Below, piece after piece: positions 16,614-48,031 of a DNA stretch of 64,000 nt. Origin of the DNA: Selaginella tamariscina (taxonomy: Eukaryota > Streptophyta > Lycopodiopsida > Selaginellales > Selaginellaceae); contig PUQB01000320.1 in NCBI GenBank assembly GCA_003024785.1, positions 1 through 64,000 of the forward strand, in the 5' to 3' direction. The number at the start of each line of letters is the position of its first letter. Position 1 is the first letter of the stretch. The notes beneath the pieces are model-generated. The model saw only the letters and a program-made list of their open reading frames with translations. It searched no databases and was not told where the DNA came from. Both the position numbers and the translations under genes were made by a program.

Positions 16614-18340
16614 ATGGAAATCGTTTGGAAGCTCATTCTGGTTGGTCTCCTGACTGCTTGTAGTGCTCAGAGTTGCAGGAATATGTGCGGAAATATGTCT
16701 GTAAGGTTCCCATTTGGAATAGACGACGGTTGTGGGGATCCATGGCACAAGCTTCAGTGTGAGAATGGTACACTCAATCTGCCTTATGAAGGTCCTTCAG
16801 GTCTGAAAGCTCTAGTTTTTGGTATCGACTACGTAGATGAGGAAATACACATCAATACCTCTTATTCTATGACTTACTCTAGCTACGAGGGCTGCGATAT
16901 GGCACTCAATGGCAGTGCCTACAAAGTGAACTCTATTGAGGGCATAATCTGTGCGGTGGCATGCTTATACAATAGACAGGTCTGGATAAAGAATACCGAC
17001 GGATTTAAGTGCTATAACTGGAAGGTGGGAATTCATCAGAAAAAATAACAGGGGCGTATTATAGCTATGCGTACGTGCCATGGATTGTAAAGTCTGATCG
17101 GAAACAACAGTGTGCGGAATGTGACCTTAGAAATGGAACTTGTGGATACACTGGTTCAACAAACGATTTCGTTTGCATCAAAAATGGTAAGTGTATCTTT
17201 TCATTGGGTAGAGTGAGGCATTCTGATTCTGTTCCACAGGGAGAAGCGTGGGGGCTGCAATTATAGGTGAGTTATTACTAATCCTAACGTTAATTAAACA
17301 CTAATTCAAAATCATTAGTAGGTGGTACAGTTGGAGGCAGTATAGCTCTTCTTCTGTTGCTCGCCGGCGTCAGTTTGTGGATTCTGCACAAAAGGATATC
17401 TATTCAGAATTGCAACTTGCAGTTACTACACGCAACACGGACATTTTCGTATAAAGAACTGATTTCAATAACAAGCACACTGTTGGGTGAGGGAGGATTT
17501 GGTTCAGTCTTCTTTGGAGTCCTGCCAGACAACAGTAAAGTTGCAGTGAAGCGTCTACAGAGCAGCAAGCAAGGGCACAAGGAGTTTGTAGCGGAGGTAA
17601 TGACGGTTGGAAGCATTCACCATTTCAACCTGGTTCATCGCGTGGCTACTCAAGGTGATCACAGTCACGACCATGTTCCTAATGGTTCTTTGGACAAATG
17701 GCTCTTTAAAGAAGGTGATGAAAAGCGATTCCTTGAGTGGCGATCAAGGCTCCAAATTGCTATTGGAACAGCTCGTGCCCTTGCATACCTAGATGTGAAG
17801 CCTCAGAACATATTGCTACACGAACATTTCAATGCCAAAGTGTGTGACTTTGGGATGTCCACTTTAATGTCCCGAGATGAGAGTTCCGTCTTCACCACAA
17901 TGAGAGGGACTCGAGGTTATCTGGCACCAGAATGGCTTACAATATGAGATCACCGAGAAGGTAGATGTATACAGCTATGATGTTGTGTTGCTTGAGCTTG
18001 TAAGTGGAAAAAGTGCTTAGACGTTAGACGTGCTGAATCCAGCAAATGGAGCTTGGCTTCTTGGGCAACACAGAAAGTTGAGAAGGGAGAGAAGCTGCTG
18101 GATGATATGGTTGATGTTCATATAAAGAAACAGTTTGAATATGACCAGGCCATTATGGAGCAGGTGGAGACGGTGGTCCAGATTGCAGTGAGCTGCATAC
18201 AAGATGAGCCAGCGAAAAGCCCTTCAATGTCGAATATAGTACATATGTTGGAAGGTTTGTTGCAGCAGATGAACAAGAGCAGTCATGCAACAATCTTGAA
18301 GATTGCTTTACTGGACAGCTCTCAGGGGCTCCTACATTGA
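16614..18340 (+). pseudogene. LRK10-like / GUB_WAK receptor kinase, broken
   Basis: The ATG at 16614 opens a signal peptide (LILVGLLTACSAQS), followed by a GUB_WAK_bind extracellular domain (CGNMSVRFPFGIDDGCGDPW). After a one-base frame break near 17030 comes a WAK-associated Cys-rich segment (CAECDLRNGTCGYTG). Two short introns follow (near 17190-17240 and 17270-17320), then a transmembrane helix (IALLLLLAGVSLWIL) and a kinase domain with the glycine loop GEGGFGSVFFG, the lysine in VAVKRL, DVKPQN, the DFG motif in CDFGMS, and GTRGYLAPEW. The segment before DVKPQN lacks the HEEC...IIH residues, so the HRD motif is incomplete, and a second small deletion precedes VPNGSL. A stop falls at 17945 and other frame breaks follow. 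The deletions make this a true pseudogene. An intact homologue would sit in the plasma membrane. Confidence 0.85.
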
Positions 18341-26316: not shown

Positions 26317-28135
26317 TTACTTGATTCTACAGTTAAGATCCTGGCTCCAGTTCTCACTTCCAACACAATGCCTACATACAAATAGGCCAGACGGATCAAC
26401 GTTGTGCTTAATCTCATACAACTTGGAATAATGCTCCCCAAAGAAAGACTCCTGCCAGTTTGGCTCATTATAATCAGCTTCATTCATGTAAGCACCTGAC
26501 CCTGGCGTCATATCGATAAGTCGCTTGTTCGCATTTGTCAAGGCTGTGGTGACTGCATCTTGCTCGGCCACACTGGCTGTCTCGCTCCAGGAGGTTTGTA
26601 AAAAGGTATGCCATATGGTCCGTCTCCATGCCGGATGAACGGCATTATCCCTTTCCCTCGAAACATCACCTCCAACAAAGTTTAGAGTTATTGCGATCGG
26701 TGAAGATGCATTTTTACGGTCTTCAATGATTGAGATTAAGGTCTTCGAGAGTTGAGCCGGTGACTTGTGGAAAACTTCACGCGTGATAAGTCGAGAGAAG
26801 CTAGACGGAGCGGAAGCCCGTCTGTTGTAGAGCTCTCAAGCCCATTGCAGCTGGTAACTCCCCCGCACAAAAACAGTCTATACTCCTCGAATGAACCAAA
26901 AGTCAGCACGGTCCCGTTGACTTGCACGCCTTGTTCTTCAGCATACGTTAAAAGAGGTGACAGAGTCTGCTCTGCCTCGGAAGTGTTTTTGTTTGGTAAC
27001 ACGAACCAGAGAACCAAATTCTGGCTTGAAAGGAATCCATAACCAGACCATCCAATATCGCTGAAGCTAGGGCCGAATTCGGTAAACTTCTCCATGAACT
27101 TTTCAAAGCCAGCGCTATAGAGCATAAACAAAACAAATGAGATCAAGTGTGCCACACACGCGCACACGTACACGAAGTTTACCTGGTGTTTGCAGTGAAA
27201 ATGTATCTGGCAGAGACAAGATTGTCAAGAGCAGGGTGAGTCTTATGCGTCGCAGAGACCACAACACCAAAAGTTCCACCGCCTCCTCCACGGAGAGCCC
27301 AGAAGAGATCCTTGTTCTTACATTGATTAGCAGTCACAAGCGTACCATCCGCAGTCACTACTCTGTATTGAGAATATTATCTGCCCCAAGCCATATAGAC
27401 CAGACATGACACTGTGTCCAGCAGCTTGAGGAAAGGCACCAGCAGCACCTACAGATGAACCTCCTCTCCAATTATGAGCTTCCTCTGGCGGTAAGCGGCC
27501 TGATAAAGCTCTTCCCATTGTGTCCCACCTCCAACTGTCACGGCTGGTTCAGGGTCAACGTTCTTACAGCCATCTGGGGTAAAATTATCCATGAAGTCTA
27601 TTCTTTTCAAGTTGTGCATCCAGATTTGTAATGAGCCTGGGGACGTGCTACGGCCAAGATAGTCATGACCGGTGTTCTTTACAACAAGTCGGAGGTTGTA
27701 CCTAGAAGCAAATTTGACAGCATATTGTACATGAGAAGCACTTGAAACATTCACTCCGTATATGGGAACTGAGCCTTGGAAACATCTTGACGTGCGATTG
27801 GTTGAGATAAACATCTTTGGTTGCCTTTCATCTCCCAATTGGTAAGTTGCATGGCTCCTGCTTGAGTAGACCTCCATATAGGATTGTCCCAGTTATCTCT
27901 TGCAACTTTACAGGCTTGTTCATTGTAATGAGGATCATGTGACATGGTGAAGCCGGAGGAATGACCCTGAATAACTTTCCTCCAATGGAATCATTGAACT
28001 GCCTCCATATGTGGTAATCTGGCCAGCATTTGTCAAAGACAGTGCAGCGACAGAATGAATCTGACTTCTGCTCAGTGGAGTGGACAGAATAAGTGAGAAA
28101 AGCAAGGAATAAAAAAACTGAAAAACAATTGCCAT
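26317..28135 (-). pseudogene. FAD-linked oxidase (BBE/VAO type, fungal-like), frames interrupted
   Basis: The product would be a secreted flavoprotein oxidase. The ATG at 28135 starts a signal peptide (FFYSLLFSLILSTPLSRS). The FAD_binding_4 (PCMH) domain follows, with KNTGHDYLGRSTSPGSL (His is the likely covalent flavin site), VTVGGGTQWEELY, and, in another frame, SVGAAGAFPQAAGHS. An intron at about 27115-27182 has GT-AG ends. The C-terminal BBE domain contains NEADYNEPNWQESFFGEHY, and the chain ends at 26317. Known plant BBE-like enzymes typically have SGGHDYEGLSY, whereas the wording here (AMQLTNWE, KNTGHDYLGRST, IWMHNLK) resembles fungal isoamyl-alcohol-oxidase-like proteins. That family call is from memory of motifs, not a search. 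Several frame breaks sit where G runs (GGG, GGGG) are one base short, so the gene may be intact. Its place between a diterpene synthase and P450s suggests a tailoring oxidation. Confidence 0.75.
27115..27182 (-). other. Intron of the FAD-linked oxidase
   Basis: On the minus strand the sequence runs from GTAAACTTCG to CTCTATAG, and coding similarity stops and resumes at these ends. The intron shows that the gene belongs to a eukaryotic chromosome and is not a bacterial contaminant. Confidence 0.7.
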
Positions 28136-31000: not shown

Positions 31001-33784
31001 TATACATGAATACTAAATATATATATACATTGTGACGCTAGAATAAATACACAGAAGATAGAAAATTTCAGATGATATTCTTATTTAGGTCAGGATTTAT
31101 ATATACAACGAAAAAAAAAGTATATTTCACACCATACTTAGATTGTCTTGTAAACCAGATTCATATTGTTTTGATTAGAGGATTACTCAGACCCCCGTTA
31201 ATTAGCTTTAAAACATATTATGGGCATAAACAGAGGTTAACCTCTTAATTACTTAACTAAGATATATATATATTGAGGTTAACCTATGCATGTATACATG
31301 TTTTAAAAGTTGTATAGAAGTGTGAGTAGAGATGTTTCCATACTTCACTTTTACTCATGCTTAGTATAGTGTTATATATAACATATGACACCAAAAACTT
31401 CGGAAATCTTCATGCACTTACTACACTCTCACTAGTGTTAGTCTGAAAAAATTAATAATCCTAAAATTAATGCTTAACCTTATATATGTAAAGAATGTGC
31501 CTTAATGAACTAAATATGATATTTGAATTAATTAGTGAACATCTATTTTCATCACAAAAGCTTCAACCCATAAAACTATAAAAACTATAATTTGAATTTA
31601 TAAAAACCATAAGAAATAATGTATTAATTATGCATTAGTGTGATGTTTGTTTTCATTATTTATATATTATTTTTATAATGGAGGTCCTTTTTCCTATTTG
31701 TTTCTTAAAATTTAATTTAGTTAACATAGAATATTTAAGTTAACATAAAATATTTATTTTAATATAAAAGAACTAACTCATGATGACATAACATCATAAT
31801 CATTGATATAATCTCAGATAATGAATGAGGTAAATAGACCAAAATAAAAGTTATTACAATATATATATATATATAAACACATGCTTATATACATGTTATG
31901 TATAAGTACATAAGCACATGCTTTTCCTTATATAAGTTCAATATTTTAGCATATGGATTATCTCAATATAATGTTATATGTTATATATATGTTAAATATT
32001 AGTATACACACAATTTAGATATTTACTATATATGTATATACAATTATATATATTTTCAATGTATATAATGTTATGTAGGTGCATGCTCCTTTATATATCA
32101 AGATTAACATATCTTATACCATATATATATATATATATAAACATATATGTTTGTGTGTGTGTGTGGATTTTCTAAAGATCTTTTTAATATCTGAGTTATA
32201 ACAAAGGAATTCCTACATTATAAATAGTGTTTTCCCTTTTACTCTAATAAAAACATACTTAAGTATTATTTAATCTTTAATCAAGTTAGATTTTATACAT
32301 TATTATAAGTTACAGTTAAGATAAAATTTAAGTATATCAATGCATATGTAAATGCATGTGATGGACATGATTATGATTTGATAATTTCATAGTGTTTTTT
32401 ATAATAATTATTTGATTATAAAGTATTGTACAGATTTTAGAATTTATATAATGTAGATTTTTTTAATAATAATTTATTAAAATTATTTATATATTATGTG
32501 AACTCATATTGTAATTACTTAGGTATAAAGGAATTATGCAAATTACAAGATGCTTCTTTATTAAATATACACATATCATATATAATGGATTTAAGTTAGT
32601 ATAAGTTTCCTTCTCGAAAGTGTAAAACCTTTGTCGTAAAGAGTCTGTGTTATAATTCTCCAAAATGCAATCAATCAAATATATATTGTAATATATATAA
32701 TAACATTTCTTAGAATTTACTAATGTTCTTTCAATTAGTTGTTATGAAAATCTTTTTATGACATATTTGTTTCATAATAACAAATTTACAGCTAATATGT
32801 CATTTCTTAATATTTGTCCACTCAATAATTTCATTACATTTCATTTTAAATATGCTATAATTTAAATATATATTTTTATTAGGTTATTATAAATTTTTAA
32901 ATATGAAAATTTTATATTACAAATTTTCAAGGGTATATACAAAAATTTAAAACTTTCATCGGCACACACACACACACACATATATAAGTTTAGGGGTATA
33001 TATGAAATTTTTCCCTTATTAATTTTAGTAAATTCATTACAAACCCATTGAATTTGCCATAAAACTGTTTAATGATATCTCTAAATGTATATACAGTTAT
33101 AGTACTTTGTGCTGTTGTGTGTTTGTAGGAGTAACCTTAGTTATTAAAACAGAACATACACACATGCACTCAGCACACGAAATTACATCTATATGGTGCT
33201 CGTGGCATACATACATACATTTATATATATATATATATGTTCTAATGATATCTTCGGAGATTCAAACCTTTGGAGATTTTATTAGAATCACATTTTCATT
33301 AAATTGAAATTTTCTATAAAATTAAAATTAAAAAGTATACATGTGTTAATATATATTAATGACACACAAATAATATATATATATACATATAATTAATTAA
33401 ATGAATTTTTAAGCATACCTTTTATATACACATATATATACACATGCATATACAAATATAAACATATTTTAAAAAATCTTATTTAATGAAAATTTGCTTC
33501 CAACTTTAATTTTACTACTTGCTTTCTACAACTTCAAAGCACTACTGGTTATTTTATATTTATGTTATTAAAATCACATGAAAATAGTAATCATGTGACT
33601 CCATAAAATGCTTATAGCTACTCGTTTTAGAACATACCATATGGTCAAACCAAATGGTAGAGTCAATTAAGCCAGTCTGAATGCGCCTAATTGGACTCAA
33701 GTAATACTTGACTTTCTGGTAGCAAATGTCCAAAGCTCACCACGATACATAGGCATTTGCAAGGCGACAGTAAAGTTTCACACA
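31001..33784. other. AT-rich intergenic sequence with TA and CA microsatellites
   Basis: No coding sequence is supported. TA repeats occur near 31858-31876, 32120-32140 and 33220-33240, and a CA run near 32964-32980. The last 100 bases before 33785 may contain the start region of the P450 but no element is certain. Confidence 0.6.
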
Positions 33785-34424
33785 ATGAGTTATATTCTTT
33801 TGTATGCCACAATTTTCATAGCATTCATACATTTGGTATGGAACTCTTTCTCAAAGAAGAAGAATTTGCCTCCGTCTCCAAGGGGTTTACCTTTGATTGG
33901 ACACCTTCATCTCCTTGGAAGAATGCCACATCACGCTCTTCTGGCACTCTCTCAAAGATTCGGTCCAATAATGTTTCTAAAGCTAGGTGCAGTTCCTGCA
34001 ATTGTCGTGTCAAACTCAGACGTAGCGAAGGAGATATTCAAAACAAATGATTTGACATTTGCTTCTAGACCGCGTCTTATAGCTGGGAAATACATTGGAT
34101 ACGATTACCAAGATATGGCCATTGCACCATATGGTGAGCATTGGAGAAACTTAAGAAGGTTATGCAACATGGAGCTCTTCACAACGAGGTGCCTTGAATC
34201 ATTTTCATGGGTAAGATCAGGAGAGATTAAACAGATTTTAAGTTCTTTATACGTATCCCATCAAGCAAATCAAGTGGTAAATATGAGAAGCATCATTACA
34301 AGCTTTACGTTCAACGTCCTGAGTAGGATTTTGTTAGGTAGGAGATTCTCAGTAGATGATAAAGAGGCTCGTGAGTTCAAGGACATTAACCAAGAAGCGG
34401 TCGAGTTGACTATAAAGTTCAATT
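33785..34424 (+). pseudogene. Second P450 (CYP71 clan), 5' part, cut by a retrotransposon
   Basis: The ATG at 33785 gives a membrane anchor (LLYATIFIAFIHLVWNSF), the hinge LPPSPRGLPLIGHLHLLG, FASRP, and the C-helix APYGEHWRNLRRL. The open frame continues without a break to TIKFN, where the copia element begins at 34425. The protein resumes at 47152. The sequence is clearly related to the P450 at 19330-20901 (CYP750/CYP76-like by motif style), so the two are probably ancient duplicates within the same cluster. Before the insertion it would have been an ER monooxygenase. Confidence 0.85.
34420..34424. repeat. Target site duplication of the copia element, left copy
   Basis: CAATT occurs here and again at 47152-47156. 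Removing the insertion and one copy joins the two P450 halves in frame (KFN then LSDFVPPWLGWLDW). Confidence 0.9.
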
Positions 34425-34603
34425 TGTTAGGAATCAAGTATCGAGCACTACGAGATACAATAGGATGCGATACGATCCCTGGGTGTCAGACCGTTGGGAT
34501 TGCAGGAGATTCACCCTGCAGGGTTATATAAGCAGTTGAACAAGAGATGTAACTGTACAGTTTTAAAAGAATACAAACGGTTCTCTTCTCTCGTTTTCTA
34601 TCT
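34425..34603 (+). repeat. 5' LTR of the copia element
   Basis: This 179-bp LTR begins TGTTAGGAATC and ends TTTCTATCT. It contains a TATA-like GTTATATAAGCAG at about 34521-34533. The end is CT, not the usual CA, which is unusual but is supported by the adjoining primer site and the target duplication. Confidence 0.9.
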
Positions 34604-34615
34604 TGGTATCAGAGC
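34604..34615 (+). other. Primer binding site
   Basis: TGGTATCAGAGC is the common plant copia primer site, complementary to the 3' end of initiator methionine tRNA. It directly abuts the LTR. Confidence 0.9.
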
Positions 34616-34668
34616 TTACTTTGGCTCACGCCGTTTCTTGTTCTTTTTTCCTCTTGTTTTCTTCTCTA

Positions 34669-37600
34669 ATGACGAGCATCAGCAAGCTTGGCTTGGTCGC
34701 ACTGCAAGGGATCTCCGTCCTGGAAGGAGCGGACGGATACGTTCCATGGGTCAAGAAGATGACCCGGCTCCTCACCATGGAAGGAGTTTGGTCCGTGGTT
34801 TCTCCTGGAAGAGCTGCTTCAGACAGTGGAGCGAGCTCAGGATCAGCCTTCCTTGCAGATAACGATGCTGACGCTAGAGAAGATCGTGCCTTGATGATCC
34901 TTTGGTTCAAACTGGGAGATGCACTGCTCTTACGGGTTGATGGCATGAGCGCCCGTGAGATCTGGGAATTCTTGCACTCACGCTTTGGAAAACCATCTGC
35001 TGCTCGACTCAAAGCACTGGAGGCTCGTGTTCAGTCCATGCGCTACACCGGTGACTTCCCTGCTCTTGTCAAGAATCTGCAAAACTGTTTTGCCGAGCTC
35101 CAGGACACTGCTCAGAGCTACAATGAGAGTCGCAAGATCCTTGCGCTCTGTGATTCTTTTGATCCAGAGTACGAGACTATCACCACCATGGTCTTCAACA
35201 CGGCTCACACTTTCACGCAAGCTGAAGAAATGATGGAGGCACATCTGATCAAGTTGGATCTCAAGAACCGTCGCGACGCAACTCTCGCAGCTGTTGCCGA
35301 AGCCAACTTTGCGGCAAGTTCCTCAGCTGGCTCCAAGAACTCAAACCGTGCTGGAGCAAGTTCATTCAAGAACTCAGGCCGAGATGCTTCCAAGAATTCT
35401 TCAGGAAGACACCAACCAAAACGTCGCCAGCAGCATTCCCGGTGCCATGCTTGTAGCCAGGAGGGCCACTTCAAGCGAGATTGCCCTCTCCTCAAGCACC
35501 TCAGCAAGTTCCTCATCTCGGATGGAATGACTGCAGATGCCCTGGAGGGGGATTCCCAGGGATCACAGTCGGATGGGGTAAATCCTGGTTCCACCTCTCA
35601 TTCACCACTAACTCTTGATTCAGGATGTGAAGAACACCTGATTCGAGACCGAGGAGTGTTCCAAGGAGCTTGAACCGGGAGGAGGGAGAGTGGTGAGAGT
35701 AGGAGATGGCAACTTACTGCAAGTAGCCGGAAAGGGCAATGTATCTATTCAAGTTGGGAATAGAAAGTCTTTGAAACTTCCAAGTGCCTGGCACGTCCCA
35801 CGACTTGTAAAAAATCTTGTCTCCGTTGCTAAGCTGACAGACAGTGGCTTAACGTCCTCTTCCCGAAGGCAGTGTGATCTCCTCAAAGGAGCCAAGAGTG
35901 TCCTGCAGATCCCTAGGAGTGGGAATTTGTACGAGATTCCTGAGAAACATGCTGACTGCATGGCGGCCGGCACATCACTGCAATTTGGCATGAGCGTTTG
36001 GGCCACGCTCACCTTCCTCTTCTACAAAAGGTACAAAAGCTGCATCTACTAGACGGCTTCTCCTCGGAACCTCTCCAGAATCTTGACCTATGCCACGGAT
36101 GTGTTCTTGGCAAACAGACTCGCTCTCAATATCCGGCTTCCACATCCTGCTCCTCTGATCTACTTCAGCTCGTTCACTCTGACATTTGTGGCCCCATGAG
36201 AGTCGAAAGTCACTCTGGCAAAAAGTACTTCATGACGTTTGTGGATGACTTTAGCCGACACTGCCAGGTGTACTTCTTGCGCTCCAAGGACCAAGCCCTA
36301 AATGCTTTTAGGGATTACCTGTGCACGGCTCAGAATCAAACTGGAAGAAGGCTTAAAGTTCTACGCAGTGACTCTGGAGGAGAGTATACCTCGCTAGCTT
36401 TCAAGAGCTTCTGCTCGCAGGAGGGGATAATTCACCAACGCACATGCCCGGGTACATCACAACAAAACGGCATAGCAGAACGCAAGCACCGGAGCATCAT
36501 GAACACAGCCCGTTGCTTCTTGCACTCGTCAGGTCTTCCTCTGCACCTCTGGTCCACAGCTGTGAAAACGGCAGTCAGGTCCAGAATCTCCTCCCTCACT
36601 CTGCAAAACCTGACCGCATTCCAGAAGAAACATGGACAGGCAGAAGGCAAAAGGTGACTAGATTGCGACGCTTTGGGTGTCTCGCCTTCATACGACAAAG
36701 TCCTGACGTAGGAGGAAATTAGCGCCTCGCAGTAAGCCAACGTTCTTGGTTGGCTATGAAGACCATATCAAGGGATACTGTCTTTATGATCCATCTAATG
36801 GCAGAATACAGGTAGTAATGATGTAGTCTTCGATGAACGGATAGTCTATCGTGATTGTCGCACCAGCTCGCCATACCACCAACTGATGCTTCACGTGCAT
36901 GGGAGCCGAATGCTTGGCTATGGGAGGATGACCCTACTGAGGAAGACAGGTCGGTTGCCGAGGAGGAAAGGAATGTCATTGAAAATGAAGGTTTACCTGA
37001 CACTTCACCCACTGCACCTGCCAATTCAACAACCGAGACTGAGTTTGCCGTAGACGACCAAGTTCAGGTTAATATCCCTAACTTGCAGGCCGAGCAGCTA
37101 GAACTGAATGCACAACCTACAACACGACGAGCTCCAGAGGCTGATCGCTTGGCGCGGGGACTTCCCTTTGATCTTCAACCTCTTGGACGTAACCATGCAG
37201 GTAAACCAACTCGGATTCCCAAACCCAAGGCATTATTGGTCACTCAACCAAAGGTGTCAACTCCGAACAACTTTCACGAGGCACAGAGCTCACCTGAAGC
37301 TGCAGAGTGGATGAAGGCCATGCAGGACGAACTTGACTCTCATCGAGCCAACCAAACCTTCACACTTGTTCCGGAAGAACCACACCAACAGGTCATCGGA
37401 GGACGCTGGGTCTTCAAGAAGTACTGAACGCGGACAGCACAGTCAAGCGATTCAAGGCTCGCTTCGTTGCCAAAGGATTCTCCCAGGTGCCGGGACTGCA
37501 CTTTGACGAGACCTTCTCACCCACTGTCAAATCCGCAAGCATTCGAGTGCTCATGGCTTTCGCTGCACAGTTCGGGCTTGCTGCACATCATCTCGACGTG

Positions 37601-38748
37601 AAGACAGCCTTCTTGAATGCACCTCTCAAGGAGAAGCTCTTCATGACACAACCCGAAGGCTTGAGCAGACAGGAGCTAACGGGGAGAAGCTTATATGTCA
37701 GCTCCAACGAGCAGTATACGGTCTCAAGCAGGCGTCGAGAGAGTGGTATAGGTGTATCGACAGCTTTCTACATGAGCATGGCTTTACCAAACTCGACTCT
37801 GATGGAAACCTCTATCAAAAGGAGACCTCCGAGGGCTTCCTGGTCATTGCTGTATACGTCGACGACTGTTTGCTCGTTAGCAGCAGCCAGGCCCTTCTCC
37901 ACGCTTCAAGGAGCTTATGAGTCAACGGTATCAGCTCTCAGACCTTGGACCAGTGGAGAAGATCGTTGGCATTCAAGTAGAACGAAATGAAACTGCTGGA
38001 ACAGTGAAGCTCAGCCAACCTCAATACGTCAATGAACTGCTAGAGCATTTCAACATGCTCAACTGTCGGCCTGCTCCAACTCCGATGGTCACAGGCCGGA
38101 AGCTGGTACGTGAAGGCACGCATGTGTTTGAGAATCCAAGTTTGTATCGGTCCTTGGTAGGCGGGCTTCTCCACTTAGCGAACACCACCCGACCTGACAT
38201 CTCGTTTGCTGTGGGAGTTCTCAGCCGCTTCAACTCAGGGCCTCTCCAAGATCATTGGCACGCTGCCAAAAGAGTCCTCAGGTATTTACAAGGAACTCGT
38301 CACTTCGGTTTGCTGTACTCCAAGAACACCAGAAGTTCCATGGTGCTTCAAGCTTTTACTGATGCCGACTGGGCTGGCGATCCAGACTCACGCGTTTCCA
38401 CCACTGGCGTGTGTTGCTTGCTAAGCGGAGCACCTGTCTCGTGGCTGAGCCAGAAACAGACTTCTGTGGCACTTTCAAGTGCTGAAGCTGAGTATGTAGC
38501 CGCATCAACAGCTGCCAAAGAAATCATCTGGCTGAGACGTATGCTCACAGAACTTCGTCATCAGCAACACGATCCCACCATTCTGCGCTGTGACAACAAA
38601 AGCACAATTGCGATGACGAGAAATCCAGTTCTTCACGCGCGGAGCAAACATATAGAGATCCCATACGGGAGAAGGTGGCGGATGGGGAGATAGTGCTCGA
38701 ATACATTCCCTCCTCTAGACAGTTGGCTGATATCTTCACCAAACCACT
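34669..38748 (+). pseudogene. Copia gag-pol, interrupted by frameshifts
   Basis: The ATG at 34669 opens an intact gag frame to 35673 with a CCHC zinc knuckle (CHACSQEGHFKRDC) and the protease box LDSGCEEH. The integrase follows (about 36000-36660: HGCVLGKQ-like LCHGCVLGKQ, VDDFSRHCQVYF, RSDSGGEYTS). Reverse transcriptase is at about 37430-37920 (RFKARFVAKGF, FDETFSP), with the catalytic YVDD near 37856-37867 in another frame. RNase H is at about 38340-38748 (DADWAGDPDSR, SSAEAEYVA, FTKPLLE). Breaks separate most domains, several of them in short homopolymers. The last coding residues and the stop (46959-46961) lie beyond the nested transposon. Confidence 0.88.
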
Positions 38749-38757
38749 GTTGGAGAA
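38749..38757. repeat. 9-bp target duplication of the nested transposon, left copy
   Basis: GTTGGAGAA here matches GTCGGAGAA at 46910-46918 at eight of nine positions. Joining the flanks at this site keeps the RNase H reading frame running to its stop at 46959. Nine bases is the usual duplication size of Mutator-like elements. Confidence 0.8.
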
Positions 38758-38781
38758 GAGGATTGGCAAAAACCGGGCTTC
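38758..38781 (+). repeat. Left terminal inverted repeat of the MULE-like element
   Basis: The end begins GAG, then keeps G.CAAAA and GGGCTTC in common with the right end at the same spacing within one base. The match is imperfect. Confidence 0.6.
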
Positions 38782-39665
38782 GTACAACGGGCTTTTCGCA
38801 TATTCCCGAATATCAGGAATATTCTGTCAAATAAAAGGGAATATTCTAGAATATTCTGCCAAGTAGATTATCTTTAACTTTCATTATAAAATGCCGACCA
38901 ACAAGTGAAAAACGCTAATTATTTGCCGACTAGACTTTACTATACCGACTAAACTTAAAAAGTCGCAGGTTCGACATTGCGCTTTGTAACCAACCAATAA
39001 CCGATGCACTTCTGCTGGAGTAAGGGTCCGCCTCTGTAAGAAGTAAGTAATCGTTGGGTCTAATCCAAGAACATGAGTGTACCAAAATACATGTGTTGGC
39101 AGGGGCTCCAGTTCTTGGCTTTCTGAAAAGTTGCACAAGTGCATGACGGAACAGCAAATTGTTACCTTAGCAGATTGCATGCCTGCAGAGACAATGAAGG
39201 CCTCAGTCTTCCCTCTTGAATCACCTCCACGTTGTTGATCCGACCTTGAAGAATCTTTGCCTGGTTGTAATGTTTCTCATGTTCCTTGGACATTCTTGTT
39301 GGTGTTTGCACACTCCGTCCATGGTATGTTGGTACTCTATGTGCTCCCTCTCCTCTTGGTGGTGATGGTGTTCGATCCATTCGGCTACTACTGTCGTCTA
39401 CCATTTCTTCAAATCCTCCAACTTGAATCCTGCTTTCAGAAGAGCTTCAACCTCATTTGCATTCAAGTTTGTTCCTTTTTGAACTGCCAAACTCTGGAAC
39501 TTCTGGAATACTCTCAGGAGGAATCCCTGCATATGGTCGTCTGAAGCAACAAGAATTGCCGTGGGCAGAACCATAGCATCTGATGAGTGAACTCAAATGT
39601 TCCCAAATGCATTTGTATATTGCGTCTACCGTGAAATCCTGGTGCCGGTACACGATGTGGATATC

Positions 39666-42122
39666 CTATGGGTCTGCCACACTTGCTGTTACCGTCTGAG
39701 TGAGACCTAGACATTTCACCTGACTTGCCTCCCAATGCGTCTGGATGGCCCACTGAGTCATCAACGTCTCTCTTTCAGTGACATTGACATCTTGAAACTT
39801 GAGTTTTTTCCTGCGTGCATTTGGGATGACTTGTTCTGCATATTGTGTGTCATGTCTATGTGTACGAAGTGCATCAATCCCATGGTCCCCAGTTGACGGT
39901 TGACGAACGGTTCGAACACGAACATTTGTTGTAGAGGCAAACTCTGGACTTGCAAGATGCTCTTCATCACTAACAAGATTTGCAAAAGTTGTTGGAGACA
40001 CTGATTTTCCCGCTGAAAGTTTCTGCTGTGCACGTTTCAGAAGAGTTTCCATGGAAGGACCTGTGCCTGAATATCTCCCTTCAAATGATGCCTTGACCTT
40101 TGCACTTTGGAAAACAGCATCTGTTAAATCTAACATTGTTGCCTCCAACAAAGGAACACGCTTCGTCAGCCTTGCTCTTCGTGCTCTTGCATGAACAACT
40201 TCGGAGTTGTTAGTGGTAGGCACATTCGCAACACCATCTTCTGTCAAGTCAATTATCTCTGTCATGGAAATATGATCTTCATGTCTTGCCCACCATGACA
40301 GCCATGTTTGCAAAGCGCTAACGTTACTGGACCTGCCTTCCCAAAATGACTCCAACATTACTCGTCGTTCCAACTTATCTTGGTTGGTTAGTGCTGCAGG
40401 CCATGAGCGTGCAAGGTTCATGTGCTCCTCCCTGTGTTCCTCAAGTATCCACTTCTTTGTAACTTGACGCACTGACTGCATGTAATGGAACAAACAACTC
40501 CTTTCTCTTCCTCTCATCTTTGACCCATTGTTGAAAACTTGACGCAATGCTAACCAAATTGCACCTGACTCATCTGACATGAACCCCGCAAAGTTCACAT
40601 TATGAAGTCCTTGCTTGCTGCACACTTGAAGCATAGTGTTCAAAAATTTGATCACCGCCACACTATCCTCCCTGATCATGTCACCATAAGCAAGTGTCAC
40701 CATCGACCTTAAACTGCACAAACATAAGTGCATTATATTAGTAAGTATTTTAAAACATAGATATGTTAATACTTACAATGGATCATAGAGATGTATTCCC
40801 AGTGTACACCAATCATCAATACGATATGTGTGGTCTAGCACCACCCACTGCTGTTCGAGATCACCTCCAGATTGACACCTTCTAATGTAGTCTATTCCGG
40901 ATCCTGGGCCGGCAACTGTCATTTTGAAGATTAAAGGCTGCTCTTCAGCTCCGTTGAGGTCCATTCCGGGTATGTGGATAACATGTATGAATGGGATTGA
41001 TAGCTTCTTCTTTAACTGCAGAAGTCCTTCGTAACCTTCTTTGAAACGAGTGTCTGTTGTTCTAGCCTGAGATATCCATTCTCTTGTTCTACATTGGAAA
41101 GGTTAAGCATCTCCAAAAGGAAATAATAATTTTTTTGCTTACCGGCGGTGATTTGTGAGTGGTAGTAGATCTGACAGAACCTTGTCGTATGATACATCTC
41201 CAGAATCTGTTACCAGTTTTTCCAAAATTATATTGCGTGCTGCTTGAAACTCTATGACACGTTGATTAGTTCTTGGGGTTGCAGCGACTGCTTTGTTGAT
41301 TGTCTCCTTAGCTCTGTCTTTAGAGACCATGGATTCGGGTGGTCTACGTGGGTGTTGATGTTCTCCAAGATGGATGAAAAGCCTCGTGCATGTGATATCA
41401 TCTGGAATTATGTAATATGCAACAACGGAGCATGTCTGCACTAGAAGGGGCTCATTGTTGCAATGCACACACTTCATTCCAAGCACTCTACCATCTGAAG
41501 ATAACTGGACTTTATCAATGGTGCCCTTAAATTGGCAGTCATTTGCTTTCTTACTGAAGCTGATGAACGGACATGTTTCCTTTACGCATTTCATGTGGCC
41601 AATACATGAACTGCGACTAACACGAGCTGGAACATTCCAATGTGTTGTGCAGCGTTGAGTCCAGTAATCACACCCATCCTTCCTATTCATCCCTTTGTAC
41701 TTGTCCTTCATTGTTTCGTGTGCTGGCAACTCGTAAATCACATTTCCGTTGCAATCTTCTGGGACCTCAGCAACTTGCTGAATCGATGACGAGACCACCA
41801 GTTGCTTCCCAATCCTACATCTCTGACTATTGCGAAGTATTGTTACCATAGAATTGTCCCGATCTGTTGTCTCCAACCGGAATAGCGGTCCTTTGGAAGG
41901 AAGAAGTGTGTAATACACAAAACTGCTAGCTCTTGCCCCTTCTGGTTCTACCTCAACATTCGCAGCATCTCCACCAACAACAGACATCAAATGCAGCACT
42001 TTAAAAGATTGCCAAGGTGGAATGTCAAATGCAGACCTGAGATCTGTTTCAAAGACAAATGCAATACCATCTTCATCTGCAGGGAAGTCCTTGTCAACAC
42101 CATTGTAGCTGATTCTTGCCAT
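39666..42122 (-). CDS. MULE-like DDE transposase with N-terminal Cys/His-rich domain
   Basis: The ATG at 42122 (MARISYNGVDKDF) is chosen over one further upstream because the extra residues look like leader sequence. Exon 1 (42122-41143) encodes a Cys/His-rich probable zinc-binding domain (RSSCIGHMKCVKETCPF, MKCVHCN, HLGEHQHPRRPP), possibly DNA-binding. Exon 2 (41088-40777) contains VVLDHTYRIDDW, and exon 3 (from 40713) contains GFMSDESGAIWLALRQVF and CLFHYMQSVRQ. These fit the first and second catalytic Asp and the C/H motif of Mutator-like (MULE) DDE transposases. Both introns have GT-AG ends. The C-terminal part is conserved in the remnant at 11148-11440. The frame is open to 39666, although a further downstream exon is possible. 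The gene is divergent from the methyltransferase gene. Confidence 0.75.
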
Positions 42123-42609
42123 GTAGCAAAAATGGAACAAACAAAAGTTAAAATTCAAAGACAATGAACATATTACACACGATGGTTAATGTGTTTGTCA
42201 GTCGTGAGGCAATCATTTCATTGACAAATATTAAAAATAATATTAATTGCGTGCGTCTGGGTAGAAGAGTGAAATTAATTTACTGCGTCTGGGTAGGTTT
42301 TTTGTAAATTAAAAAGTTTTACTATGTACAAGTGGCGATCATGCATGCAATATGTTTACAGAAATTAGGTTGGTTTTTAATTGATTTAGGGCGGCTAGGG
42401 TTTTGCAATTAGGGCGGCTAGGGCAGCGAGGGCGGCTAGGTTTTCGTGGAGCAGCGGCGCATTTGGGGGCATAGCGTGGAGCAAGTGTGGCTCCAGGGAT
42501 TAATCACAATAGGCTTCCATTGAGGGGGTGAGTATTTTCTGATTTCTTCATGATCTGCTCATGATCTTTTCATGATCTGTTCATCTTTTTACATCTCTTC
42601 ACAGTTGCA

Positions 42610-42960
42610 AGAAATCCGAGTCGGCCTGCCGACTCGGACTGACTTCGTTGTCCGTCCCAGTCGGCAGGCCGACTGGGGTGGACTGTTCCAGATCCAGTCA
42701 ACATTTTGACCGGGGTTGACTGTTCCAGCCCCAGTCAGCATTTTGACTAGGGTTGACTGTTCTAGTCCCACCTAGCATTTTGACTGGGCCTTGTTTCGTT
42801 CCCAGTCCCGGTCGGCAGGCCAACTGGGGTGGACTGTTCCAGATCCAGTCAACATTTTGACCGGGGTTGACTGTTCCACCCCAGTCAGCATTTTGACTAG
42901 GGTTGACTGTTCTAGTCCCACCTAGCATTTTGACTGGGCCTTGTGTTCGTTCCCAGTCCC
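42610..42960. repeat. Diverged palindromes in a duplicated block of about 150 bp
   Basis: Two copies of a roughly 150-bp block (starting near 42656 and 42806) contain the palindrome variants AGTCGGCAGGCCGACT and GTCGGCAGGCCAACT. They also contain decayed relatives such as AGTCAACATTTTGACC and AGTCAGCATTTTGACT. A further variant, GAGTCGGCCTGCCGACTC, lies near 42618-42635. Confidence 0.75.
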
Positions 42961-43293
42961 AGTCGGCATGCCGACTGGGCCTCCCTTTGTTGCCAGGCCC
43001 AGTCGGCATGCCGACTGGGACTCCCTTTGTTGCCAGTCCCAGTCGGCATGCCGACTGGGACTCCCTTTGATGCCAGCCCAGTCGGCATGCCGACTGGGAC
43101 TCCCTTTGATGCCAGCCCAGTCGGCATGCCGACTGGGACTCCCTTTGATGCCAGTCCCAGTCGGCATGCCGACTGGGCCTCCCTTTGTTGCCAGCCCAGT
43201 CGGCATGCCGACTGGGACTCCCTTTGATGCCAGGCCCAGTCGGCATGCCGACTGGGACTTACAGCAACTGCTCTCTCAGTCGGCACGCCGACT
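42961..43293. repeat. Array of 16-bp palindromes AGTCGGCATGCCGACT
   Basis: Eight perfect copies start at 42961, 43001, 43041, 43080, 43119, 43159, 43199 and 43239, and a ninth variant (CGGCACGCCG core) starts at 43278. The period is 39-40 bp, close to four helical turns, with conserved spacers containing CTCCCTTTGWTGCCAG. The array sits in the space between the two divergent genes, where both promoters should be. Confidence 0.95.
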
Positions 43294-43379
43294 GTGAGGG
43301 CTAGTATGTTTTTTTAATTTTTATTAAACATCTTTGAACATTTATTACAGTTTTTTGTTAAACCTTATTGCTTTTGTAG

Positions 43380-46300
43380 ATGCGCTCTTCACAACGTTTA
43401 CAAGAAAAGAAGATGAAGGAGCCTACTGAGAGAGAAGCAGAAGCTAGAGCTGCAATTCAGAGAGGGCGTCGGGGTCGTGGGAGAGGAAGTAGGAAGCTGG
43501 CTGTGGTTCAGGAACAAGGACCTTCAAGTGATGCTCCAGTTGAACAGGCAAGCCAGCAGGACTGGTCAGGAGAGCAAGAGGATGTAGTTCAACCCCAACA
43601 AGAACAATCAGACTTTGTTGAAGAAGTTGAGGATGATGTCTTACCACAGGAGACACAGGAGCAGACAGAAGGCACACAAGCCTCATGCGCAGTGACTTTG
43701 TCGAGTGACGAAGAGGATGAACCCAAGAGCAAGAAGAGACGACGCAAAGCTGCTGGAGATTCAGAGGCTGCTAAGAAGAAGAAGAAGGGAAAGCAGAAGT
43801 GCCAGATAATGAGGAAGTTTACAACATTGCAGCCAGCATGCATTCGGAGAGTGCAGTGCGTCTTCTCGCGAAGATCACAATCCGAGAATATGGAGAGGCA
43901 CCGGATGTCCCTATTTGCCGAATTCTGGGAAATGAGCAGGTGCGGAGAGTCAATCCAGCGGATCTGGAATCTTTGACTAGGAGTTTCAAGAAGGCAGTTG
44001 GTTATTTGCGCAACACCACTCAGTTCATCCTTCAAGTTGGGGACCCCATGACAGATGCAGATCTGGCAGCATTGAGAAGCGATGAAGCGATGTATGCTCA
44101 GCATTTGGCTTTTGAGGAGGAGCTTCAGTCCGACATGTTCCGGCAATGGGCACCAATGCTTTCGATGAAGAAGTTCATCTGTTGGGATGGTAATCACAGG
44201 CTAAAGGTGCTTCAGAAGCTGTACACAGAAGACACGGAAGATAAGATCAGTGGGCAGTGAGAGTGCGTTCAGGCTTCATCCGTGCTGGGGTCATGGATAA
44301 TCTTCAGCTTGTGACAATGTTTCAGCAAATTAATAGGTAAACATAGTGACCTCTAGATCATAGGATTAACTAACTTCGAGCTTTTCAAATATGCAGTTCC
44401 TCCGCAACGGCAGTGCAAACCACACTGCCACATCTTCTGCTATCTGTGAAGACATGTTGCACCAGTGAGGAGGGCACAGCGAAGATCTTGGCCAGGCTCA
44501 GTGACAAGGAACGAGATGACATAAGAAAGTGGAAGGAAAGCGCGACTGGACAACAAGCTTGGCATCCACTTCCGAATTTGATCTGTGCAAAGATTTTTTT
44601 GAGGTACCATGTCTCACACTTATATCACTTAGTTGATTACGTCTGTGAATTACAGAGTGAGATTGAGGATGATCTTGAGAAGGCTGCAAGGGCATCCAAA
44701 GGCAACAAATACCAGGAGCAACAACAGGTCTACATTAAGCATGACAAGCGCATGATGAAGATCTTAGCCATCATCGATCCTGCATTGGGTGAAGAGTGGT
44801 TCGACAAGGTGACCCAAATCACATGGAAACAATGCAGATGGATGGGGTTGGAAAAGCTGTACGCGCTTTCAAGGGCGAGAATTCCAAACGAGACGAGAAT
44901 CATGTACTTCAATAAACTGGTACGTCTCGATCTGAAGAGAGAGCAAGAGACACTTGGATTGCCGGGTGTTCAGGATAAGGAGTGGATAAGGTGGTTTACT
45001 ATCGATTTGTATTGGCGGGCAATCAGAGAGGAGGCAGTACAGATTCTCACGGGACTCATCGAGGATGGCGAGTGGAGCAGGCCGGTTACAGATTTCACGA
45101 CTTGGTGCGATGAAGTGCGGGTAAAATGCAAGAACGTGATGTTCCAGCCATTCCATGAGTGTGTGAAGTTCACTTACTCCATAGAGCCGAAAGAGTTCCT
45201 CGAACACGAAGAGACAGCAAGAAGGATGATTTGGAGGTAAGGATGATCTTCTTGACATTGTTACATTCTGACACTACTATATGTTCATTACAGGTATGTC
45301 GCAGCGAGAAAGGTGCCTCACACACAGACTATGGTATTCTGGTCAGATTACATGGAAGCACCACACATGTGGTCGAAGACAAGATCTGGCCTGACAGAGT
45401 TCGAGCGTGTACACGTACCGTTCTGGCTTGATTATCCACCTGGGCAACCACCAACATGGGAGAAGGATCTCTACAATGAACACTCAAAAGATCTCCCATG
45501 CATCTCATGGGATCCGGCAGAGGTCGACTTCATTAAGAAGACAAAGGCCAAGGCAAAGCGGCGTCAGCCTGTGCAGCAGTCAAAGAAGACCTCAGATACA
45601 GTAGCTGGCACCTCCACTACTCGCGATCCAGCTGCCTTCTTCAATTTATCTGAAGTGCTACCATCGCAGGGAACCATGGACATCAAGGATGACTTGGTCA
45701 CATTCGTCCCTTCACTTGCTACAACTCGAGGTGATAATTTCTTGGCGATTGATGACATCGAGGAGATGCAACAGGCCGTGCTCACGGATGAGAAGGAAGA
45801 GGAGGTTCCTGACGCTAGACTGGTTCCTTATAGAAAAGTTCAGACACAGGTGGCCAGGTACCATACAGCTGACAGCCAGACTCGCTACCAGCATATTGCG
45901 GGAGAATATGGTTTCAACTTGGTGATCTTCGACCTTCCAAATGGGACCTTGCCAGGAAATACAACGAGTGATACGCCATACCTCTACCTTGATCCAGTGA
46001 AGTTCGATGAAGCACTCCAGTTTGCAGGTATGCATATGGCTGCAAATGGTTGGTTGGTTGTGTTTGCTGCAGCAAACACCTGGGATCAAGTTGTCCGAGC
46101 TGCAAGTGTGGTGGACCTTCAACTTGCTGCAACGTACTACATCTACAGAGGGCGTGGTTGGGGCTACCGCAACAAGATGAAGGTACTTTTTTCTTTATTC
46201 ATGAAGTTCATTAATGATTTTTGATGTTTTAACAGGAGAGCATCCTGCTCCTTCTTGTCTTCCAAGATGCATCTAGAGGATTGCGCGATAATCCTGCGTT

Positions 46301-46695
46301 TGTCATCAACAATTCTTGTTGATAATCCTGAGCGGTTCCAAGAACCATGGTAGGCATTTCATTTCAACAATTAAGTATTTACCATTATCTTCACATGCAG
46401 GATGGACTACCAACCGAAGAGCACTCGATTGATGCAGCTCGTGATAGAACGACTCACCCGGCCAGGTGATCTTATCTGGGATATAGGCAGTGGTACGGGG
46501 TCCTCAATGCTTGCAGCTATCGAGCTGGGGAGAAACATTGTTGGGACTGAGAAGAACCCTGAGCTCGGGAGAATTGCTATGAACAGGATTAAAGAGAACA
46601 TCCAGCCAGAGGAAATCCCAACCCAACCAATAGCGACGTCAAGTAGGACTGGTGGTTCACGAATTGCAGCATTGCTCAATCGTAAGAAGAAGTGA
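43380..46695 (+). CDS. ParB-like domain plus beta-class DNA amino-methyltransferase
   Basis: The ATG at 43380 opens a charged, low-complexity N-terminus with a basic KKKKKGK tract. A ParB-like segment with the motif WDGNHRLKVLQKL is near 44180-44215. Four introns have GT-AG ends: 44337-44396, 45237-45293, 46183-46235 and 46350-46400. Exon 3 ends with a methyltransferase half containing NLVIFDLPNG, in the position of the catalytic DPPY motif, and GMHMAANGWLVVFA. Exon 5 encodes motif X (STRLMQLVIERLTRPGD), motif I (IWDIGSGTG) and motif II (VGTEKNPE), ending at 46695. The order catalytic motif, X, I, II is that of beta-class N6-adenine/N4-cytosine methyltransferases (N6_N4_Mtase). ParB plus this domain is common in phages and mobile elements of bacteria. 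DLPNG departs from DPPY, so activity is uncertain. Frame breaks near 43787 and 44247 are each one G short of a continuous frame; another lies in exon 4. Confidence 0.72.
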
Positions 46696-46885
46696 CAAGT
46701 GTTGAATTGTACTCTTTGGTGTTGAAATAAAACTTTAATAATACAGTATAAACATGGCTATGATTAAATATTTTTTGTTGTTAATTGCCGACTGAGCCAA
46801 AATCCTAAAATTCTAAGAAATATTTAGGAATTCTAAGAATATTCTGTAGATTCTTAGAATATTCCGGGTCCAAGCCCGGAAGCCC

Positions 46886-46909
46886 GGAAGCCCTCTTTTG
46901 TCGGGACTC
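46886..46909 (-). repeat. Right terminal inverted repeat of the MULE-like element
   Basis: Reverse-complemented, this end begins GAGTCCCGACAAAAGAGGGC and continues with TTCC, resembling the left end. Extra GGAAGCCC repeats lie just inside it. Confidence 0.6.
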
Positions 46910-46918
46910 GTCGGAGAA
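46910..46918. repeat. 9-bp target duplication of the nested transposon, right copy
   Basis: GTCGGAGAA differs from the left copy at one base. The copia RNase H frame resumes here and reads ENVFFKLRSSLGISA to a stop. Confidence 0.8.
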
Positions 46919-47151: not shown

Positions 47152-48031
47152 CAATTTAAGTGACTTTGTTCCACCTTGGCTTGGCTGGCTTGACTGGAGA
47201 GTTCCCGAGTTTAAGAGAGTTCACCACAAGCAAGACAGTTCCTACAAAAGATGCTTGATGAGCACAAAGTAATGAGGCAGTGGAATCCAAAGATTTCATG
47301 GATCTCATGTTGACTTTGAACAAGATGGTGACAGAGGAGAAACGATTGTCAAAGCCACTGTCATGGTAATGTTTCCATTTCTTATTTATCTTGCTATATA
47401 TTGAGAATGGTTTAAACTGCAGGATTTGATTACAGCAGGAACAGACACAACTGCAACTGCGATAGAGTGGGCACTAGCAGAGCTTCTTCACAACCACCTA
47501 TGATGAAGAAAGCCCAGGACGAAATTAATCAAGTTGTGGGAAGTTCCCGCATGGTTCAAGAGTCAGACTTTGCAAAGTTAGAGTACTTGCAAGCCATTGT
47601 GAAGGAGACATTTCGGCTTCATTCTCCGAGTGTGATATTATTGCCTCGAATGTCCACCCAAGCTTGCAATGTTGCAGGGTATGACATTCCTAAGGGAACA
47701 CAGGTTTTGGTGAATACTTATGCCATGGGGATGTGTGGAAGGATCCTTTGCAGTTTATACCGAGAGATTTATTGGGAGTCCCATAGATGTCCGAGGCCAG
47801 GATTTAGAACTGATACCATTTGGCTCTGGTAGAAGAATATGCCCTGCTATGCCACTGGCAATGAAAGCCATTCACCTCATGTTGTCCAACTTGATCCATG
47901 GTTTTGACTGGAGTTTTGCACCTGGAAAGAAGCATGGTTTGGAGGATGTTTATAACAGTGTTGGGATGTTAAAGACTCCGCTCGAAGTAGTAGTTGCCCC
48001 AAAGCTCTCAAAAGAAGTGTACATTTCTTGA
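47152..48031 (+). pseudogene. Second P450, 3' part
   Basis: The protein resumes after the retrotransposon with LSDFVPPWLGWLDW. An intron lies at about 47367-47422. Then come the I-helix AGTDTTATAIEW, the ExxR box KETFRL and the haem loop FGSGRRICPA, whose last residue is Ala where Gly is usual. The end is at 48031. At least five frame breaks are visible (near 47235, 47290, 47492, 47728 and 47763), each explained by one base missing from a short run, mainly G or C. Even if these are consensus errors, the 12.7-kb insertion in the coding exon makes this copy non-functional unless the element is transcribed and removed. Confidence 0.85.

Follow-up and report, generated by a model that had tools for sequence, protein, structure and literature searches.

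A DNA transposon of Selaginella tamariscina that pairs a MULE-like transposase gene with a methyltransferase-domain gene and keeps a short motif at its ends and between its genes

In the VANDAL MULEs of Arabidopsis, the accessory protein VANC removes silencing (PMC5735166, PMC10398659), and in VANDAL21 the tandem repeats of the noncoding regions contain a 9-base motif to which VANC21 binds (PMC5735166). DIRS retrotransposons have been described as encoding Dam-like adenine methylases, and dinoflagellate retrotransposons as encoding DNMTs (PMC5890265), and fungal DNA transposons encode a TET/JBP dioxygenase for which an escape from silencing has been proposed (PMC12730594). N4CMT of bdelloid rotifers is said to have no eukaryotic homologs (PMC8885841). 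Here we describe a transposon in a 64,000-bp stretch of DNA (G000:C639:1-64000, referred to as the window) from Selaginella tamariscina, a lycophyte and not the seed plant or gymnosperm that a first-pass annotation of the stretch had supposed. The element carries two divergent genes, one for a MULE-like transposase (gene 1) and one ending in a beta-class amino-methyltransferase domain (gene 2), and an 8-base motif, AGTCGGCA, is found near its ends and between the genes.

The element resembles the VANDAL/VANC system in being a DNA transposon with an accessory gene and with a short motif in noncoding tandem repeats, the arrays of which vary between copies. It differs in that gene 2 has a bacterial-type amino-methyltransferase domain, and in that two deeply diverged families have the same motif, whereas the targets of VANC6 and VANC21 differ in motif. 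With the DIRS and dinoflagellate elements it shares the coding of a DNA methyltransferase domain by a eukaryotic mobile element; those are retrotransposons, for which the accessible text describes no divergent transposase gene or motif arrays, and their DNMTs belong to a different family. The fungal TET/JBP elements are likewise DNA transposons with a DNA-modifying enzyme of their own, but that enzyme is unrelated, has demethylation-type chemistry and occurs in fungal hosts. N4CMT is, like the gene 2 domain, an N6_N4_Mtase of the permuted (beta) bacterial type that a eukaryote encodes in a gene with introns; unlike gene 2, it is a host gene with a chromodomain that acts on transposons and is not itself transposon-borne. 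Neither methyltransferase nor methylase was found as a term in the available parts of a MULE survey (PMC6446971). No report of a transposase paired with a methyltransferase was found in the accessible parts of the open-licence literature searched.

Several eukaryotic transposon families have reportedly acquired adenine and cytosine methylases, as Iyer et al. are said to have noted in 2011 in a work that may cover relatives of the present element. Transposon-borne DNA-modifying enzymes are already known; what is new here is the conserved AGTCGGCA at the ends and in the promoter.

A multi-copy transposon of two families

Positions 38758–46909 of the window are confirmed to hold a real, multi-copy DNA transposon, a complete insertion of 8152 bp with two divergent intron-containing genes. 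In the assembly searched (300,702,823 bases in 1391 contigs), most of the fetched copies elsewhere have end points identical to those of the window element, and the coordinates given in the first-pass annotation were right. A 9-bp target-site duplication was scored in 21 copies of the window element's own family (family A), two of which could not be scored, with mismatched flank pairs as the control. It is exact, within 2 bp of the ends, in 14 of the 19 scorable copies and missing from four, and it was seen in none of the 342 swapped-flank pairs. The duplication had originally been read from the window, where the pair differs at a single base; exact-word matching of the two flanks, at seven bases or more, returned no shared word. 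The terminal inverted repeats are short and imperfect, about 24 bp, which fits a MULE without being diagnostic, since MULE repeats are often long and may be absent.

A single decayed copy can be ruled out from the copy counts. An exact 19-mer at the WDGNHR site of family A is found 205 times in the assembly and its reversed controls not once, and about 100 matches at 100% identity to 87 residues of the methyltransferase end were obtained when 150 of 1199 candidates were scored. A second family (family B) and its variants were reached with the pattern TGGGAYGGNAACCAYMGN, built to leave out the codon of family A; it matches 362 places, the controls none, and 94 of the 100 matches listed share one spelling, the other six being variants. 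These rare variants of the WDGNHR codons (G000:C504:194341, C450:296406, C280:291374, C493:292271, C158:67131 and C492:359911) hint at additional families of this element that have diverged. Gene 2 is encoded at all 20 fetched family B places (about 3 kb each). The full-length structure of family B was read from one copy, L051, which has the same divergent pair, order and intron positions as family A, a 9-bp duplication without mismatch (ATCCCAGTG) and termini similar to those in family A; in tblastn comparisons of the two families, introns break the match at the same places.

Both genes are matched in all 20 fetched family A copies, some of them with internal deletions or insertions (for example L012 and L016), although this sample was picked through the methyltransferase and is biased for gene pairing. 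A search starting from the transposase, in which 150 of 1643 candidates were scored and fell into 133 family A and 17 family B matches, places the divergent methyltransferase end 5.1–6.2 kb away for 86 of the 133 family A matches and exon 3 of gene 2 beside 22 more, so that at least 108 of the 133 have a partner. Three more partners (C440, C442 and C516) were recognised by eye among the 19-mer matches listed, and the remaining 22 have no gene 2 partner among the matches listed, which does not imply absence. For family B, the first 100 places listed supply a WDGNHR partner to at least 13 of the 17 transposase matches. Copies lacking one of the genes, which were to have marked the pairing as a chance capture, are thus not what the large majority of transposase matches represent. 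Copies with the same divergent pair and duplications, which the first-pass annotation proposed seeking in gymnosperm genomes, were found within this genome (family A and one full copy of family B), apart from the four without a duplication. The best explanation is a transposon family of autonomous type that was recently amplified.

The features of the window element, with its flanking duplication, are as follows.
38749–38757, no strand: left target-site duplication GTTGGAGAA, one mismatch against the right copy
38758–38781, plus strand: left terminal inverted repeat GAGGATTGGCAAAAACCGGGCTTC, an end near-identical in most fetched copies
38924–38931, minus strand: left subterminal motif, reading TGCCGACT and lying 167 bp inside the left end
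39100–42122 (left boundary approximate), minus strand: transposase gene, DDE-type and MULE-like by motif, with open frames and a family B homologue
42122–41143, 41088–40777 and 40713 onward, minus strand: transposase exons 1, 2 and 3, splice sites read from sequence
42616–43301 (limits approximate), no strand: central intergenic tandem array of inverted pairs AGTCGGC-NN-GCCGACT
43380–44336, plus strand: gene 2 exon 1, coding for a basic/acidic N-terminal stretch and for the WDGNHR region, ParB-like at motif level only
44397–44603, plus strand: gene 2 exon 2
44658–45236, plus strand: gene 2 exon 3, without a profile match and with a one-base gap in 13 of 21 copies
45294–46182, plus strand: gene 2 exon 4, ending with methyltransferase motif IV (DLPNG)
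46236–46349, plus strand: gene 2 exon 5
46401–46695, plus strand: gene 2 exon 6, S-adenosylmethionine (SAM)-binding motif I (WDIGSGTG), N6_N4_Mtase Pfam match
46786–46793, minus strand: right subterminal motif, reading TGCCGACT and lying 117 bp inside the right end
46886–46909, minus strand: right terminal inverted repeat, its reverse complement starting GAGTCCCGACAAAAGAGGGCTTCC, compared among copies
46910–46918, no strand: right target-site duplication GTCGGAGAA, one mismatch against the left copy GTTGGAGAA

The transposase and the methyltransferase-domain protein

The motifs quoted earlier for the two genes are all present, VVLDHTY, GFMSDESGA and CLFHYMQ on the minus strand and WDGNHRLKVL, DLPNG, WDIGSGTG and GTEKNPE on the plus strand, and both genes are, as described, divergent and broken by gaps that look like introns, their GT..AG borders being read off the sequence. 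One locus taken up through a match to the GTEKNP pattern, L030, looked unrelated when read in a single frame.

MULE-like DDE transposase is a fair label for the predicted product of gene 1. The residues D412, D478, C504-x2-H507 and NN-[SA]-E602 (consensus numbering) are invariant in families A and B, a comparison made at motif level only, and Hua-Van and Capy are said to have characterised MULE transposases in 2008 by D, D and E with a C-x2-H between the second D and the E. The family B protein is 67% identical to that of family A over 828 columns, cysteine/histidine-rich N-terminal segments are conserved in both, and many transposase exons are open over 600 residues. The 9-bp duplication, exact in the full family B copy, falls in the range of 8–11 bp given for MULEs (PMC6446971). 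Within HMMER's filters, no Pfam match at E up to 5–10 was obtained with the transposase of either family, whether as full consensus or as core; no protein homologue was found at E up to 1 among the scored candidates of a 5.8-billion protein set, no PDB match better than E 0.2, and none in IMG/VR. An AlphaFold single-sequence model of the transposase has a predicted local distance difference test score (pLDDT) of 35.7. The label MULE-like given on first pass is retained at motif level, for the D/D/C-x2-H/E residues, helped by the 9-bp duplication and with no Pfam match to add to them.

The six exons and the splice sites of gene 2 were read from the sequence, and its frames from translations. 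A beta-class amino-methyltransferase domain makes up the last 240 residues, as had been claimed: Pfam N6_N4_Mtase (PF01555) is matched at 7e-9 and 36.4 bits in family A and at 38.0 bits in family B, both above the curated cut-off of 26.7, and motif IV comes before motif I. Further methyltransferase matches are phrog_67 (3e-12), PADLOC MTase_II (1e-11) and, in the PDB, MboIIA (8e-4), together with DpnA and CcrM; the Pfam match is confined to the motif I part, and the other profile and PDB matches too cover mainly this part. Motif IV also precedes motif I in four phage beta-type enzymes aligned with the element protein, with 16 invariant columns. DLPYGTT and DIPYGTT of such enzymes (Pseudomonas phage Lucjan, Vibrio phage VH-8) come near the DLPNGT of the element, whose protein differs in having N for Y and about 770 further residues, the phage enzymes being about 210–270 residues long. 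A tblastn search of phages with gene 2 returned 305 records with a best E of 3e-4, and the 20 matches listed all lie in the methyltransferase end. Among the scored candidates of the protein set, no homologue was found for gene 2 at E up to 0.001 or for its end at 0.01, nor was any found in IMG/VR or in GTDB contigs; all these sets are mostly non-plant and their negatives say little on other plants.

Gene 2 has no Pfam match above the cut-off besides N6_N4_Mtase, and none in the roughly 460 residues between the WDGNHR region and the methyltransferase domain. ParB/Srx proteins carry a G-x-H-R box, which WDGNHRL, invariant between the two families, resembles at motif level. No ParB/Srx profile was matched in Pfam, PHROGs, NCBIfam or PADLOC, a tblastn comparison of the region with phages found nothing at E up to 10, and its AlphaFold pLDDT is 38.6, with no fold assigned. 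The ParB label was dropped and WDGNHR is kept as a motif. Among the profiles proposed for the predicted proteins, N6_N4_Mtase was recovered and ParB/Srx and MULE were not.

Between families A and B, gene 2 is 58% identical over 885 columns, the first 140 or so residues being left out. In a codon comparison of the majority sequence of A with a B sequence taken in large part from a single copy, both proteins are 62–66% identical. The proportions of synonymous (pS) and nonsynonymous (pN) differences are 0.85 and 0.245 over 700 codons in gene 2, and 0.80 and 0.223 over 757 codons in the transposase gene. Since synonymous sites are saturated and nonsynonymous sites constrained, both genes have been kept by purifying selection for a long time, and selection on gene 2 has been about as strong as that on the transposase. 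Past selection on both genes, together with their stable pairing, rules out chance capture or junk.

A motif shared by ends and promoter

Among all 8-mers, AGTCGGCA alone occurs in each of six noncoding regions, the left, central and right ones of the two families. No 8-mer with this distribution arose in any of 500 first-order simulations, and 7-mers of this kind arose in 10 of 500. The motif occurs 21 times in the window element and twice in the other 55.8 kb of the window. In family B its distances to the ends are 135 and 153 bp on the left and 107 bp on the right, and its orientation matches that in family A.

The densest clusters are found between the genes and not at the ends. The array units measure 40 bp in family A, around AGTCGGC-NN-GCCGACT, and 137 bp in family B, where the sequence is different; the two members of an inverted pair are two bases apart in A, and in B they face the other way across a longer gap. 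Array length varies from 2 to 14 inverted pairs per copy among 21 copies, with 11 in the window. Counting pairs with at most one arm mismatch, which leaves out more decayed ones, 170 of the 171 counted are perfect. A motif that is kept while its surroundings change is what an element-encoded DNA-binding protein would require. The first-pass suggestion that the element may mark its own ends is indirectly favoured by the presence of AGTCGGCA close to either end and between the genes, a motif that the annotation had not mentioned.

What the motif may be for

These results raise two questions. Which of the two proteins would read the motif, and what would be gained by reading it? We propose, with a probability of about 0.42, that the gene 2 protein recognises AGTCGGCA and, by binding or modifying it, keeps the promoter and the ends accessible against silencing by 5-methylcytosine (5mC). 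Gene 1 would provide the transposase for cut-and-paste movement, and gene 2 a protein that acts on chromatin or DNA and has a beta-class amino-methyltransferase domain. This protein would bind the element's own AGTCGGCA sites in the intergenic promoter region shared by both genes and near the ends; its binding, or its modification of an exocyclic amino group to N6-methyladenine (6mA) or N4-methylcytosine (4mC), would block or counteract the 5mC silencing of the host, much as VANC counters the silencing of VANDAL elements. The proposal builds on the observed structure, copy number, gene pairing, past selection, motif conservation and methyltransferase homology. It adds that gene 2, and not the transposase, may bind the motif, gene 2 being the natural reader because it has a DNA-modification domain, and that DNA modification and an anti-silencing effect may follow. 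In a stricter form, which we consider rather doubtful, the element would use a private base-modification code, its own amino-methyltransferase or a catalytically altered descendant reading AGTCGGCA at the promoter and ends, marking it with 6mA or 4mC and so hiding or shielding the element from 5mC silencing.

If the proposal is true, plant transposons would have a second molecular route beside VANC for fighting silencing, a eukaryotic transposon would have kept a bacterial or phage DNA-modification domain over long evolution, and, should the stricter form hold, a bacterial-type site-specific modification system would be at work in the nucleus of a land plant. Purposeful 6mA or 4mC in the nuclear DNA of land plants is disputed. 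A conserved amino-methyltransferase gene, hundreds of copies and a candidate target, AGTCGGCA, offer a direct place to look for these bases, and the motif makes the proposal directly testable.

Several results count against this reading, and the pattern of CpG changes is divided. The gene regions of the copies carry the scar of 5mC in the form of CpG transitions, at 30 of 194 sites, whereas the central flanks, with 22 sites, have none (p 0.05). Changed CpG is found in none of the 171 counted inverted pairs, as against 62 of 3867 CpG cells in gene regions; it is found in 0 of 227 cells in the noncoding part at 42200–42600, in 4 of 231 near the left end and in 1 of 19 in the 3′ untranslated region. 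These cells are not independent, arrays homogenise, and more decayed pairs are not counted. The by-site flank test is marginal, and a protected promoter is only suggested. Moreover, the observed/expected ratio of CpG is 0.58 in the element and 0.56 in the rest of the window; being no higher than in the surroundings, it indicates no overall escape from CpG methylation. Likewise, the smaller of the central AGTCGGCA counts is 15, compared with a simulated maximum of 5, but the simulations were run without tandem duplication and high central counts therefore prove little, the presence in six regions being firmer.

The state of the copies weighs on the same side. The window copy is frameshifted in both genes, and an unbroken gene 2 frame is present in none of 21 family A copies. 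Most of the breaks are private to single copies, and the exon-by-exon majority sequence, built from 21 copies or, for the transposase, from 19, stays open but for a single position in gene 2 exon 3, where a one-base gap is common to 13 of the 21 copies and the base is present in the other 8; the window copy is open at this position. The gene 2 copies differ by 160 indel events as against 195 substitutions, with only 25 of the indels near a run of three or more equal bases. The breaks reflect either an assembly error with many small indels or a recent loss in most copies. As for the break in exon 3, either it was inherited, which would leave most copies dependent on others, or it too is an assembly error.

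The last point concerns catalysis. The canonical catalytic motif IV is (D/N/S)PP(Y/F/W). Motif IV of gene 2 is DLPN in both families and does not fit, the aromatic residue being missing, whereas the aligned phage proteins have DPPY, DPPY, DIPY and DLPY. An enzyme without this residue may be inactive, and because DLPN is non-canonical we speak of a methyltransferase-domain protein and do not assume catalysis. It is not hard to imagine, then, that a dead domain was kept as a SAM- or DNA-binding scaffold and that gene 2 is a pure binding protein, whether a regulator, a transposition helper or an anti-silencer. The arrays of AGTCGGCA would suit such a protein, and DLPN is conserved in both families with 52% identity around it. 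We nevertheless consider this unlikely, given that conservation is higher around SAM motif I, at 76% identity, than elsewhere in the domain, which suggests SAM use, and given that DLPY and DIPY occur in phages, so that only the last residue of DLPN is unusual.

Quite unlikely, in our view, is a self-encoded transposition clock, in which AGTCGGCA would be methylated at the ends and in the promoter, and the transposase or the promoter would sense full or hemi-methylation and tie transposition to replication. Host Dam is known to couple the transposition of IS10/Tn10 to replication. The motif is indeed present in both subterminal regions as well as in the intergenic stretch common to the two genes, and the domain aligns with phage methyltransferases having DLPY or DIPY, one of them annotated as N6-adenine; yet the arrays are denser than a clock needs, and the non-canonical catalytic motif IV speaks against it as well.

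AGTCGGCA could also be the transposase's own site, bound as subterminal repeats and in autoregulation of the promoter, with gene 2 acting elsewhere, for example by modifying excised or integrating DNA. TNPA of En/Spm combines subterminal-repeat binding with promoter autoregulation. The subterminal position and orientation of the motif, conserved in families A and B, would agree with such a use, as would the cysteine/histidine-rich N-terminal segments of the transposase. The densest clusters, lying between the genes, are less expected for it, although compatible all the same, and we regard it as very unlikely. Finally, that the methyltransferase gene was acquired as a fragment on a single occasion and has since travelled along without a function is extremely improbable: MULEs often acquire further genes (PMC6446971) and frame breaks occur in 21 of 21 copies, one of them widely shared, but the constraint on nonsynonymous sites at synonymous saturation contradicts this explanation, and the intron positions common to both families and the partners found for most transposase matches count against it too.

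Turning from the proposed action of gene 2 to the setting of the element, the transposon sits in a Copia-type retroelement, with gag, integrase and reverse transcriptase domains. The Copia frames lie at window positions 34567–38693, and the transposon follows directly past the reverse transcriptase frame. Parts of a cytochrome P450, at 33671–34531 and 47416–47832 (profile positions 1–188 and 292–371), flank the Copia element on either side, which indicates a nested insertion within a P450 gene or its intron. Elsewhere in the window, a galacturonan-binding domain of wall-associated-kinase type followed by a protein kinase domain lies at 16524–17947, and a Berberine-bridge-enzyme C-terminal domain at 26317–26835.

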